DNA from: a virus
Reading direction: 5' to 3' (one strand)
IMG/VR virus record: IMGVR_UViG_3300044811_000121
Location: 1-45,297 of that record
DNA length: 45,297 nucleotides
Shown in pieces: positions 17,810-22,943 of the stretch. Below the pieces are notes generated by a model. That model did no database searches. It was not told the origin of the DNA and saw nothing but the letters and a program-made list of their open reading frames with translations. A program made the position numbers and the translations under genes. How positions within the stretch are numbered: position 1 is the stretch's first letter; the number at the start of each line of letters is the position of its first letter.

Positions 17810-20029
17810 CTAGCGCCGCCGCTGCGCGTCACGAACGGCACGCACCGCGATCGGCGCGATCAAGTTGCCGAGCGCGATCGCGTCCTCCTTGGTCGCGAGA
17901 TTGCCGGTATAGTGGGCGTTGACGTGGACGTGAATGTCGCCGCCGCCGGCGCGGGCGCCGCGGTCGTTGGCGGGATCGATCCGGATATTCTCGCCGGTAT
18001 TGACGCGGGCGATGGCCCGATGGTTCAGGCTGAGCAGATTGCTGTCCACGCCCGCCATGCCGGCGACGCGGATGGTGCCGCCGCTGGCGAAGCGGGGCAG
18101 GTTTGCCACGCCTTCGCTATAGCCGGAGGCAAAGCTCGACCCGACGCCCGGGCTCCCGCCGCGGCCGAAGCCACCCATGAAACTGGACAGGGCATTGGAG
18201 AGCGGCCCGATAATGGAGCGCTGGATCTGGATGCGGAGCAGGTCCGCGATGATCGACTTGGCGACGTTCTTAAAGACATCGCCCAGGCTCTTGGCCTGCA
18301 TGATCGCGTCGACCAGGCCGTCGGTCAGCGACTGCAGTCCGTTTGCCGCGATCGCCTCGAGCGCCTCATTGGCCATCGCGGCGGTGCGCGGCAGCCGGGC
18401 AAGAAATTCCTCGAGAGGGCCGCGCGTGTTGCGCAGCACGCCGGCGCGGTCGCTGGCGCGGCTGGCGTTGAGCGCATTGAGCTCCTGCTGGGCGCGGTCG
18501 CGCTCGTGCCCGGAGGTGCGTTCGGCTAGAATGATCTCCTCGAGCTTGGCGCGCTGGTGACGATAGGTGAGATCGAGCAGTGCGAGTTCGGCCCGGCGGC
18601 GCTCCGCCGCCGTGTCGGCCGCGTCGGATTGCGATCGCAGCGCCGCCGCGGCGATATCGTAGCGCTGATCGGAGAGGTCGTTTTCCTCTTCCTGCAGCGT
18701 GCGGGACCGCTCGAGCGCGAGCGTGCCGCGCTCCTCCTCGTCTAGCGCGTGGTAAGCAGCGAGCAGCTGCCGCGCTCTCGGCTCGTCGAGGTCGTCTAGC
18801 GCAAGCTTGAGCGCGACGTCGGCCGCATATTGCTGATTCTCGATGTCGAGGATCGACTGCTGAAGATCGCCCCTGACGACCGTGTCGTTGGTTTGCTGCT
18901 GCTGCTCGCGCAGCTGGTCCATTCGGAAGCGACGGAGCTCAGACTCGAATTCGTGCTGATCGCGCAGCGCCTTCTTTCGGGCAGCCTCGGCGCGATTGGC
19001 GCCACCGTGATGGCCGTGCGGCGAAAGATCGAGATCCTGATTACCGGTATCTGGCAGGTCAGTGATCGGGATATCGACCGAGCCGGGCGGGCTCGGATTG
19101 GGCGCATCCGATCCGAATTCGCGCAGGATATTCCAGACAAGCGCCACGTAGGGGTTCACGATGGCTACCGGTGAGTCCGAGGAGCGCTCGAGCACGCGGC
19201 CCACTCTGGTGGTCTCGGTTTCCGGGTGGGGACCTGCCCGGCCGACACGGCTGAGCCAGAGAAGCGCGCTCGCCGCTGTCCGGATGAGCGTCCCCAGGCC
19301 CTTGACGACCTCCCCGATCGCCGGAAGACAGTCCAGCAGCGCGGACGCGAGATTGGTGCGAAGGGTGACTGCCAACAGCGCCAACTTGTCCGCCGCCTCG
19401 TCGGCGCGGCGCGCCTGTTCCTCGGTGATCAGACCCGCCTCACGCGCGGCTTCCGCGACGCGGTCGTAGCCTTCCGCGCCCTGGACCAGGAACGGGATCA
19501 TCTCCGCCGCGCCGCGGCCCATCAGCCGTTGCGCCGCCGCCGCCTGTTCCGATTCGGTAGCCAGGCGGTGGATCGAGTCCATGACGCGCGGCAGCACCTG
19601 GCCGGCGCTGGTGAACTGCTCCGGATCGATGCGCAGCGCGCGGAAGGCCTGGACCGCGGCCGGCACGCCGGCGCGCGCTTGGCCGAGCGTCCGGTTGAGG
19701 ATCGACATGGCGCGTTCCATGCCCTCGACGCTGGCACCGTTCTCGATCGCGGCGCGGCGCAGGATCTGCAGCTGCTCGACGGTGACCCCGATCGATCGCG
19801 AAGTTTCGCTGAGGCCGGCCGCGAATTGGAATGCTTCCCGCGCCTGCTGGATGAAGAAGCCCGCAACGAGGCCGCCGGCGATGCCGGCGACTACCGTCTT
19901 CATCTGCGTGAAGCTGGCGACGATCCCACGGTTGGCGGCGACCGTCCGCGTCTGCGCGCGGCGCAGGCCGCTCTCATAGGCGGCCGTGTCGATTCCCATC
20001 ACGACCCGGAGCGCGCCGATCACGGACAT
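17810..20029 (-). CDS. Tail tape measure protein
   Basis: This 739-residue protein begins MSVIGALRVVMGIDTAAYESGL, the common opening of phage tape-measure proteins, and is followed by long helices, a hydrophobic segment (about 45-65, VAGIAGGLVAGFF), a second membrane-like stretch in the middle, a charged coiled coil (about 370-500) and a Gly-rich C-terminus. Tape measures set tail length and may enter the host membrane during DNA injection; by the usual 0.15 nm per residue this would suggest a tail of roughly 110 nm. The ATG has AGGAG six bases upstream and overlaps the end of the frameshift extension by ten bases. Confidence 0.9.
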   Translation of the reverse strand: MSVIGALRVVMGIDTAAYESGLRRAQTRTVAANRGIVASFTQMKTVVAGIAGGLVAGFFIQQAREAFQFAAGLSETSRSIGVTVEQLQILRRAAIENGASVEGMERAMSILNRTLGQARAGVPAAVQAFRALRIDPEQFTSAGQVLPRVMDSIHRLATESEQAAAAQRLMGRGAAEMIPFLVQGAEGYDRVAEAAREAGLITEEQARRADEAADKLALLAVTLRTNLASALLDCLPAIGEVVKGLGTLIRTAASALLWLSRVGRAGPHPETETTRVGRVLERSSDSPVAIVNPYVALVWNILREFGSDAPNPSPPGSVDIPITDLPDTGNQDLDLSPHGHHGGANRAEAARKKALRDQHEFESELRRFRMDQLREQQQQTNDTVVRGDLQQSILDIENQQYAADVALKLALDDLDEPRARQLLAAYHALDEEERGTLALERSRTLQEEENDLSDQRYDIAAAALRSQSDAADTAAERRRAELALLDLTYRHQRAKLEEIILAERTSGHERDRAQQELNALNASRASDRAGVLRNTRGPLEEFLARLPRTAAMANEALEAIAANGLQSLTDGLVDAIMQAKSLGDVFKNVAKSIIADLLRIQIQRSIIGPLSNALSSFMGGFGRGGSPGVGSSFASGYSEGVANLPRFASGGTIRVAGMAGVDSNLLSLNHRAIARVNTGENIRIDPANDRGARAGGGDIHVHVNAHYTGNLATKEDAIALGNLIAPIAVRAVRDAQRRR

Positions 20030-20424
20030 GGCGGCTCCTTTCGTTTCGTCTTGGGCGGCGGGCTGGCGGCAGCGAGCGCCTCGTGCGGGTTGAGCACCGC
20101 GCGCCAGGCGCGCACGTTGGCGCCCATCTCGGCGAGGCTCTGCCGCTCTGGCGCTGCGGCCTTCTTCCGCCGCGCTTTCCTGCCGGTCAGCTTCTCGATC
20201 GAGGGGATCGCGTTCGGCTTGTGGTGGGCGAAGGCGGTGAGCTGCGCGGCGAGGCGCAGCGTCGCCAGATCGTGATCTAGTCGGTCCTCGAGGCCGCCCA
20301 GGGCCGCTTCAAATTCGCGGGGGCTGGTCTTCCAGAAGGACGCGACGTCGTAGCCGGCGCGGCACCACAGGCGGATCAGCGCGTCGCTGTCTACCTTTTG
20401 GGGCCTTTGGGCCGCGCCGGCGCT
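20020..20424 (-). CDS. Frameshift extension of the tail assembly chaperone (T part of G-T)
   Basis: This frame is open for 134 codons from the slippery site to a TGA at 20020-20022. It encodes a helical segment (ALIRLWCRAGYDVASFW) and a lysine-rich tail. It has no ATG, GTG or TTG near its beginning; the first Met is about 100 codons in. It lies in the -1 frame relative to the upstream chaperone. It is therefore best read as the C-terminal part of a fusion protein of about 256 residues made by -1 frameshifting, as with lambda gpG-T. The extension would recruit the tail tube protein while the G part binds the tape measure. Confidence 0.8.
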   Translation of the reverse strand, partial: SAGAAQRPQKVDSDALIRLWCRAGYDVASFWKTSPREFEAALGGLEDRLDHDLATLRLAAQLTAFAHHKPNAIPSIEKLTGRKARRKKAAAPERQSLAEMGANVRAWRAVLNPHEALAAASPPPKTKRKEPPCP

Positions 20425-20789
20425 TTTTTTGGGGTGCCGCCTTTCGCCGCCGGCAGGTCGTTCTGCTGCCCCGTGAAGATGAGGCGCAGCGCGCCCTCGA
20501 GGCCGAGCTCGTCCATGATCTCGGCCACGGCATCCCCGTCGAAGTCGGCCTCGATCTCGAGGCCGGCGGCGATCAGGGCGCTGAGGTGCGAGTGGCGCAG
20601 GCGCGCCGCGGCCAGCATCAGCCGCTCCGGCTGCTCGAGCATCTCCGGCGTGATGCCCGGAAGCATGTCGGCGAAGATCTCGCCGAGCGGTTTGTCATAC
20701 CGCTCCTCGAGGCGGCAGATTGCCGCCCAGCCGAACTTGAAGCGCCAGGTCCGGCCGAGCGCCTTGAAGGTGGTCGCATCGACAGCCAT
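20391..20789 (-). CDS. Tail assembly chaperone (G-like)
   Basis: A 132-residue protein between tail tube and tape measure, where tail chaperones are always found in long-tailed phages. The opening (TTFKALGRTWRFKFGWAAIC) and LEERYDKPLGEIFAD resemble the gene-transfer-agent gp10/tail chaperone group. Normal termination is at TAG 20391-20393. Near the end the message carries seven A residues read as Pro-Lys-Lys, the slip site for a longer product. The short form should be in excess over the fusion. Confidence 0.8.
   Translation of the reverse strand: MAVDATTFKALGRTWRFKFGWAAICRLEERYDKPLGEIFADMLPGITPEMLEQPERLMLAAARLRHSHLSALIAAGLEIEADFDGDAVAEIMDELGLEGALRLIFTGQQNDLPAAKGGTPKKAPARPKGPKR
20424..20430 (-). 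other. Programmed -1 ribosomal frameshift site
   Basis: On the coding strand the heptamer is A AAA AAA, phased exactly as the X XXY YYZ rule requires (codons CCA AAA AAA GCG). Slipping back one base leads into the open frame that runs to 20020. The zero frame meets its stop 11 codons later, so both products are possible. GC-rich sequence follows and could form a stimulatory stem. Confidence 0.8.
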
Positions 20790-20792
20790 GGC

Positions 20793-21224
20793 CTAGCTCG
20801 CGGCCTGCGTCGCCGAGCCCGAGACCTTGGCGGTGAACGTCGCCGTGCCGGCGGCGTCGGTGCCGAGCTCGCCGACCTCGTAGGAGAGCGGGATGCAGGT
20901 GCCGGTGACGTCCTGGGTGGTGCCGTCGGTCTCGACGACGACGAGCTTGAACGCGCGCGCGGTGCGGGCGGCGAGCGCGGCCAGGATCTTGGTGTCGGTC
21001 GTGCTGCCCGGGCTGTACCACAGCCCGATCTTGAGCTCGCCGGGATCCGCGAGGCCGGGGATGAAGGTGCGCACGCCGCCGACGGAGCCGTGATGGGTGC
21101 TCTCGAGCGAATCGACGGTAAGGTTCGGCCGGTTGACCGAAGTGACGCCGTCGAACTTGACCAGGCCGGAGCCATCGTGCAGGTAGAATTTCGCGCCAAA
21201 CGGCAGGACCGCTTCGTCGGCCAT
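20793..21224 (-). CDS. Major tail tube protein
   Basis: The 143-residue product is beta-rich (GAKFYLHDGSGLVKFDGV, GELKIGLWYSP, ATFTAKVSG) and fits tail tube proteins of siphoviruses, which stack as hexameric rings. It lies just before the tail chaperones, the standard place. The stop is three bases before the next ATG. A terminator-like hairpin lies in its leader at 21243-21270. Confidence 0.85.
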   Translation of the reverse strand: MADEAVLPFGAKFYLHDGSGLVKFDGVTSVNRPNLTVDSLESTHHGSVGGVRTFIPGLADPGELKIGLWYSPGSTTDTKILAALAARTARAFKLVVVETDGTTQDVTGTCIPLSYEVGELGTDAAGTATFTAKVSGSATQAAS

Positions 21225-21702: not shown

Positions 21703-22158
21703 TCAGCCCCTCGCTCCGCTGCCGCGCGCCAGGCTCTTGTCGATCGCCGCGGCGAGCTCGACCTTGATAACCTCTAGCGCCAAACCGCGCGTGCTCTCCC
21801 AGCCGCGCGTGAACCAGCCGGTGGTGCCGCGATTGTAGAATTCGGTCAGCGCCGCATACTGCGTGACGCCAGTCGTCCCGTCGGCCGCGATGCCGATATT
21901 GAGTTGCGCCGTGGATTTCACCGTGCCGGCGTCCTGGGCGGCCTGGTGCCTGGTCAGCTTCGTACCGGCGGCCGGGCTGGCGGCGAGGTGCCCGGTCAGG
22001 CCCCGCGGTGCATTGGCCCTCAGCACGTTGACGACCATTGGCGCCGCCTTGCGCAAGGTCCGCACCAGCACCGCCTTGCGGGTGCGGTTCGGCAGCTGAC
22101 GCAGCTTTTGCTCGAGCTCGCGGAATCCGAACGTCCGGACCGTGACAGTGCCGACCAT
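21703..22158 (-). CDS. HK97 gp10-like neck protein
   Basis: The 151-residue product (ELEQKLRQLPNRTRKAVLV, LRANAPRGLTGHLAAS, YAALTEFYNRGT) follows the HK97 gp10 family pattern: an N-terminal amphipathic helix, an 'AP.dTG.L..S' stretch and a C-terminal helix. These proteins act at the head-tail joint. The genes before and after it are also connector and tail-completion genes. Confidence 0.82.
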   Translation of the reverse strand: MVGTVTVRTFGFRELEQKLRQLPNRTRKAVLVRTLRKAAPMVVNVLRANAPRGLTGHLAASPAAGTKLTRHQAAQDAGTVKSTAQLNIGIAADGTTGVTQYAALTEFYNRGTTGWFTRGWESTRGLALEVIKVELAAAIDKSLARGSGARG

Positions 22159-22434
22159 CTACGGCGCCGCTCGCGCCCTGCGCCGCCTGCCCTTCAGCGA
22201 GCCGCCGCGGTGGCCGTCGCCGTCATGGTCGAGCGGGTCGGGCGCCGGCGCAAGGTGCGCCGGCATCGCGGCCTCGGCCAGGACGCGCGCCTCGATCAGC
22301 TGGTCGGGATCGGGGTGTTCGTAGACGTCGCGGATCCGCTTCGAATAAGTGGGCCCGGCGCGCGCTTCGCTGGCGCCGTCCGGATAAACGGGCCCGTAGG
22401 CGTTGCCGTGCTGCTTCAGCGTCAGCACCCACAT
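22159..22434 (-). CDS. Small hypothetical phage protein
   Basis: A 91-residue product beginning MWVLTLKQHGNAYGPV, with an acidic patch (PLDHDGDGHRGG) and a basic tail (KGRRRRARAAP). Its ATG overlaps the upstream stop (TGATG) and it ends exactly where the neck gene begins, so it is coupled to its neighbours. No family recognised. Confidence 0.6.
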   Translation of the reverse strand: MWVLTLKQHGNAYGPVYPDGASEARAGPTYSKRIRDVYEHPDPDQLIEARVLAEAAMPAHLAPAPDPLDHDGDGHRGGSLKGRRRRARAAP

Positions 22435-22943
22435 CAATTTTCTCCGATGATGACGACGCGGTAGGTGACGCCGGTGGTGCCGCCGCTGTTGGCGATCTTG
22501 AGGATGTCGCCGGTGTCGGCGGTTACCGCCAGCCCGGTGGCGCCGCGGCGCGTGACCAGGAAGACGTCGCCGGGCCCGAGGTTGATCTTGTCGGTCGCGT
22601 CGCCGAACGGGCCGGTGAAGGTGTTGGTGGCCGCGCCGCCGATCACGACATTGTTGGTGTTGCCGGCGTTGGCGACGATCAGGATCGCCTTGATCGCGGT
22701 GAAGGTGATCGTGCTGCCGAGCGCGTTGGTCAGCGAGGCGGCGAGATCGAGATTCTCGGTGGCGCTGGCCGCCAGCGTGCGCTCGTCGCAGAAGACGTTC
22801 TGCGCCTGGTCGGCGCCGGCGCCGTCGCTGAACAGCATCTCGAACGTCTCGATGAAGTCGTGCCTGGGCAGCGGCGTCATGTCGCTCGAGCCGATCAGCG
22901 AGCACGCGAGGCTCAGTTTCAGGGTGGCGGCAAGCGTGGTCAT
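22434..22943 (-). CDS. Hypothetical phage virion-associated protein
   Basis: The 169-residue product is beta-rich with repeated small-residue turns (AASLTNALGSTITFTAIKA, GNTNNVVIGGAATNTFTGPF, GDILKIANSGGT). It starts one base after the head-closure gene. Such genes between connector and neck genes often encode decoration or minor virion proteins, but this is only positional. A long upstream extension in the same frame was discarded because it overlaps the head-closure gene. Confidence 0.6.
   Translation of the reverse strand: MTTLAATLKLSLACSLIGSSDMTPLPRHDFIETFEMLFSDGAGADQAQNVFCDERTLAASATENLDLAASLTNALGSTITFTAIKAILIVANAGNTNNVVIGGAATNTFTGPFGDATDKINLGPGDVFLVTRRGATGLAVTADTGDILKIANSGGTTGVTYRVVIIGEN

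Follow-up and report, generated by a model that had tools for sequence, protein, structure and literature searches.

Does the stretch that separates the tail tube gene of this virus from its tape-measure gene hold a second tail chaperone product, reached by a change of reading frame? The DNA analysed here, hereafter the window, covers positions 1 to 45,297 of the IMG/VR virus record IMGVR_UViG_3300044811_000121 (45,297 nucleotides, 68% GC), and the locus lies on its minus strand. The first-pass annotation had proposed that a short chaperone, G, is extended through a programmed −1 frameshift into a downstream frame, T, as in the G/G-T arrangement of phage lambda. PHROG and Pfam matches of the neighbouring genes confirm that the pair is set between tail tube and tape measure, in an otherwise ordinary HK97-type head-tail module of protease, capsid, connector, head completion and tail terminator genes (Table 1). 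A protein of about 169 residues with a match to PHROG 22694 (E 2.3e-53; unknown function) is also encoded in this module on the minus strand, at 22434-22943, as an insertion that separates the head-completion gene from the gene upstream of the tail terminator (21703-22158).

The slippery heptamer and the open −1 frame

The A_AAA_AAA heptamer claimed for positions 20430-20424 was correct to the base when the strand was read and the coordinates were re-derived: the codons are CCA AAA AAA GCG, so that two C residues precede the A7 tract, its first A is codon position 3 of the 132-aa ORF and the heptamer stands in slippery phase, 10 codons from the G stop and hence near the 3′ end of G. The window has no other A7, whether on this strand or on the opposite one; a first-order model predicts about 0.25 occurrences on the minus strand of the whole window, and about 9e-5 in-phase occurrences within the last 16 codon slots before the G stop. 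Both codons that make up the site are rare choices in the 12 structural ORFs, where of the 149 Pro codons 5 are CCA and of the 115 Lys codons 19 are AAA. A second in-phase heptamer, C_CCA_AAA, overlaps A7 and was treated as part of the slippery site.

From the heptamer onwards the −1 frame is open for 134 codons. It ends at a TGA (20022-20020), and as the tape-measure ATG is at 20029 the two genes overlap by 10 nt; the predicted G-T fusion is 256 aa long. These values, re-derived here, agree with those of the first-pass annotation, as does the lack of an early start: the first ATG of the T frame is at 20127, followed by GTG codons at 20115 and 20097, and no ATG, GTG or TTG is found near the N-terminus of the extension, the first of them being already past the conserved core of T. 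By itself, the open frame is weak evidence for coding in such GC-rich DNA (the probability that 134 codons stay open is about 0.10, given 1.7% off-frame stops). The GC content of T by codon position, however, is 0.70/0.54/0.89, as compared with 0.66/0.49/0.86 for the structural genes, a profile not matched by any other frame on the minus strand; because of this profile, and of homologs in the same frame (see below), the extension is convincingly coding.

Table 1. Positions in the window of the chaperone locus, its signals and its neighbours
Feature	Position	Strand	Evidence
Tail tube (major tail) protein, upstream neighbour	20793..21224	−	PHROG 158 major tail protein, 1.8e-10; Phage_TTP_11 5e-5, below cut-off
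Short tail assembly chaperone G (product of the zero frame, 132 aa)	20391..20789	−	ORF; PHROG 2115; Pfam matches of relatives; AF2 model
Slippery heptamer A_AAA_AAA	20424..20430	−	Sequence; only A7 in window; C_CCA_AAA_AAG in L005
Possible 3′ stimulatory stem-loop, long, GC	20353..20421	−	94-nt fold
T, −1 frame extension, 134 codons and stop	20020..20424	−	Open frame; −1 frame of L005; PHROG 19318; weak Phage_TAC_6
Conserved core of T, W..AG....FW.TSPRE....GG	20293..20394	−	Alignment of 29 sequences
Tail tape-measure protein, lambda-type, downstream neighbour	17810..20029	−	PHROG 8462 tape measure, 1.9e-28; Tape_meas_lam_C above cut-off

A stem-loop that may stimulate the shift begins 2 nt after A7, and both the stop codon of G and the beginning of the T domain lie within it. 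The 94-nt fold has a predicted energy of −47.7 kcal/mol (z −3.2), which none of 200 shuffles equalled, and its z score beats 99% of 272 windows in the region; because four windows were tried, we regard it as suggestive only. A conserved downstream stem is not general across the relatives (mean z −1.27 at their sites versus −0.61 for the background), and the same test gave no strong stem in the nearest relative (z −0.9).

Relatives and family membership of G and T

When phages, viral contigs and genome contigs were searched directly with G, T and the fusion, no close relatives came up. Relatives were found mainly via the neighbouring tail protein (28 in number), and profiles made from a few of them located both G and T in 29 loci, the window included (22 clusters when grouped at 60% T identity). 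In all 29 the two frames overlap and the step from G to T is −1, and no start codon is found close to the start of the T domain in any of the 28 relatives. The pairs of Agrobacterium phage Rivra, Caulobacter phage Kronos and Paracoccus phages Psul1 and Pben1, four named phages from outside this set, likewise show the −1 relation, which is thus kept in 32 of 32 relatives (the 28 and the four named phages). The nearest G-T relative, L005 (IMG/VR contig 3300031229_000022), shares 40% identity in G and, in its own −1 frame, 46% in T; the alignment with relatives that had been put forward as a check thus supports the extension. Loss of the open frame or of the A7 tract in close relatives had been named as evidence that would speak against it: the frame is kept throughout, and A-runs are present at the junctions of L005 and of Paracoccus phage Shpa (A_AAA_AAG), but A7 itself is not family-wide.

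The protein families point the same way. G of the window matches PHROG 2115, annotated "tail protein" (E 7.6e-6), and T matches PHROG 19318, of unknown function, significantly (E 1.3e-10, profile positions 2-88 of 105). In Pfam, G of the window has no match and so does not reach the Phage_TAC_11 cut-off, T reaches 14.1 bits against a cut-off of 23.4 for Phage_TAC_6 (E 0.065), and the window's record, when searched for Phage_TAC_6, yielded nothing at E 0.001. Among the 29 aligned sequences of each half, however, 18 G sequences match Phage_TAC_11 (GTA-gp10) and 17 T sequences match Phage_TAC_6, at E values up to 0.01. Both are tail-chaperone families, and because the relatives match them we place both halves there; for G of the window, the assignment to Phage_TAC_11 is thus one by homology through its relatives. 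AlphaFold2 models of G (pLDDT 83) and T (pLDDT 84), built from the relatives' alignments, were compared with the predicted viral structures of BFVD. The best matches of the G model are tail assembly chaperones, the G protein of Kronos included, and one viral protein, A0A0K1LMC7 (247 aa), is hit by the G and the T model alike; these fold matches are modest, with best E values of about 2e-3 for G and 2e-2 for T. A PDB fold search with the G model found nothing convincing, and a PDB sequence search no credible relative. A TAL effector chain, which gave a lone low E-value with the G profile in PDB, was dropped, as no stretch of it passes by itself.

In Shpa (gp13/gp14; L004), Kronos (L047), Rivra (L046), Psul1 (L048) and Pben1 (L049), the deposited annotation has G and T as independent hypothetical proteins, with T starts that cut into the conserved T domain. 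Since the frame of T is −1 relative to G in these five alphaproteobacterial phages, the fusion is missing from their annotation, and what stand there as two unrelated hypothetical proteins are revealed as the same pair. In the window, the T domain supplies a missing gene product in a stretch that gene finders would leave empty.

The proposed ribosomal slippage, its rivals and the candidate sites of relatives

The unique, in-phase A7, the startless T, its coding-type GC profile, the −1 relation in the relatives, the family assignments and the gene order together support the lambda-type reading, namely that two tail assembly chaperone products come from the locus through programmed −1 ribosomal frameshifting. 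We put the probability of this reading at about 0.93. In the host, most ribosomes would stop at 20391 and release the 132-aa G, whereas a minority would slip back one base, with two lysine tRNAs on A_AAA_AAA, and read the −1 frame to 20020, giving a G-T fusion of 256 aa. On the model of lambda, the G part may bind the tape-measure protein and the T part recruit tail-tube subunits. Counting against this reading are the absence of a Pfam match for the window's G and the score of its T below the cut-off, the lack of conservation of A7 across the family, a stem that is not consistently kept and the modest fold matches.

The junctions of the relatives show how variable the site is. L005 has C_CCA_AAA_AAG at the same position as A7 in the window, the Shpa site is in phase as well, and L008 has A_AAA_AAC. 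Such A-run sites are a minority: other relatives carry G_GGA_AAG or G_GGA_AAC, A_AAC_CCT (L006:4240, L011:3363, L020, L021, L027, L032) or G_GGC_CCT (L002:2529, L015, L029, L030, L033, L037) in place of A7, which is therefore one variant of a conserved −1 shift. At the junctions of L013, L018, L024, L028 and L031 the sequence is a degenerate NNC_CCT, in the forms G_CGC_CCT, G_GAC_CCT and C_GGC_CCT; at these five junctions slippage could involve the proline codon alone, because the tRNA in the P site, on the codon before it, cannot re-pair. An in-phase C|CCT is found near the junction of 21 of the 29 loci, compared with about 0.02 expected per junction (from 3 occurrences in 3156 codons elsewhere in G), and is absent from the window itself. 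We tentatively suggest, at somewhat less than an even chance, that most relatives shift at the in-phase C_CCT, where a single proline tRNA would slip by −1 from its CCU codon onto CCC; such a signal would be typical of these phages and would not follow the two-tRNA X_XXY_YYZ rule. In this chaperone family, the in-phase C_CCT may be an under-described recoding signal.

The same fusion could be made without ribosomal slippage if RNA polymerase slipped on the A7 tract, leaving both frames in the mRNA pool. Homopolymeric A tracts do support polymerase slippage (see the discussion of poly-A in PMC3711429), but seven A residues are short for it, the runs cited there being longer than 7, and the relatives with the non-homopolymeric sites G_GGA_AAG, A_AAC_CCT and G_GGC_CCT have the same −1 arrangement, which fits ribosomal rather than polymerase slippage; we consider a transcriptional origin very unlikely. 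Less credible still is a T protein made on its own from a rare start codon (e.g. CTG at 20379 or ATC at 20376) by coupling to the G stop. An AAAAGG stretch does lie about 12 nt before that CTG, and the annotators of related phages gave T its own gene; their starts, however, fall inside the conserved domain, no ATG, GTG or TTG precedes the T domain in the window or stands close to its start in the 28 relatives, and with a separately started T the in-phase slippery sites would have no reason to persist. That the frame break is an indel in a decayed or mis-sequenced gene, G and T having once been, or really being, one ORF, we rate as next to negligible: an A7 tract does invite sequencing errors, yet the same −1 break recurs in 32 other records with differing sequences at the break, and conservation is at the protein level in both frames. 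Ribosomal frameshifting thus stays our preferred reading of the locus.

Comparison with known chaperone pairs

In phage lambda, the slippery site of the G/G-T pair is G_GGA_AAG. The window resembles lambda in the place of the pair between tail tube and tape measure, in the short product with a −1 extended fusion (here predicted from sequence), in a slippery heptamer close to the 3′ terminus of G and in a T without its own start. It differs from lambda in its site, A_AAA_AAA, and in its families, the TAC_11/TAC_6 pair seen in alphaproteobacterial phages, to which the relatives of both halves belong by direct matches whereas the window's own proteins score below the cut-offs. The gp13/gp14 pair of Shpa shares with the window a T in the −1 frame of G and an A-run site in phase, there A_AAA_AAG; L005, too, has A6G instead of A7. 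The lambda frameshift is described in work by Levin, Hendrix and Casjens (1993) and Xu, Hendrix and Duda (2004), as cited in PMC5009743, which also reports G-T frameshifting to be widely conserved among long-tailed dsDNA phages; the PRFect paper is a further source on it (PMC10885494), and the shift is described as the usual case in phages of Rhodobacter capsulatus, RcZahn being an exception (PMC8601537). With a cassette from a different gene, a reporter showed about 10% shifting on A_AAA_AAA itself (PMC3711429). Thus, the device is well known from lambda, and the locus in the window is very probably a further case of it, ordinary in kind.
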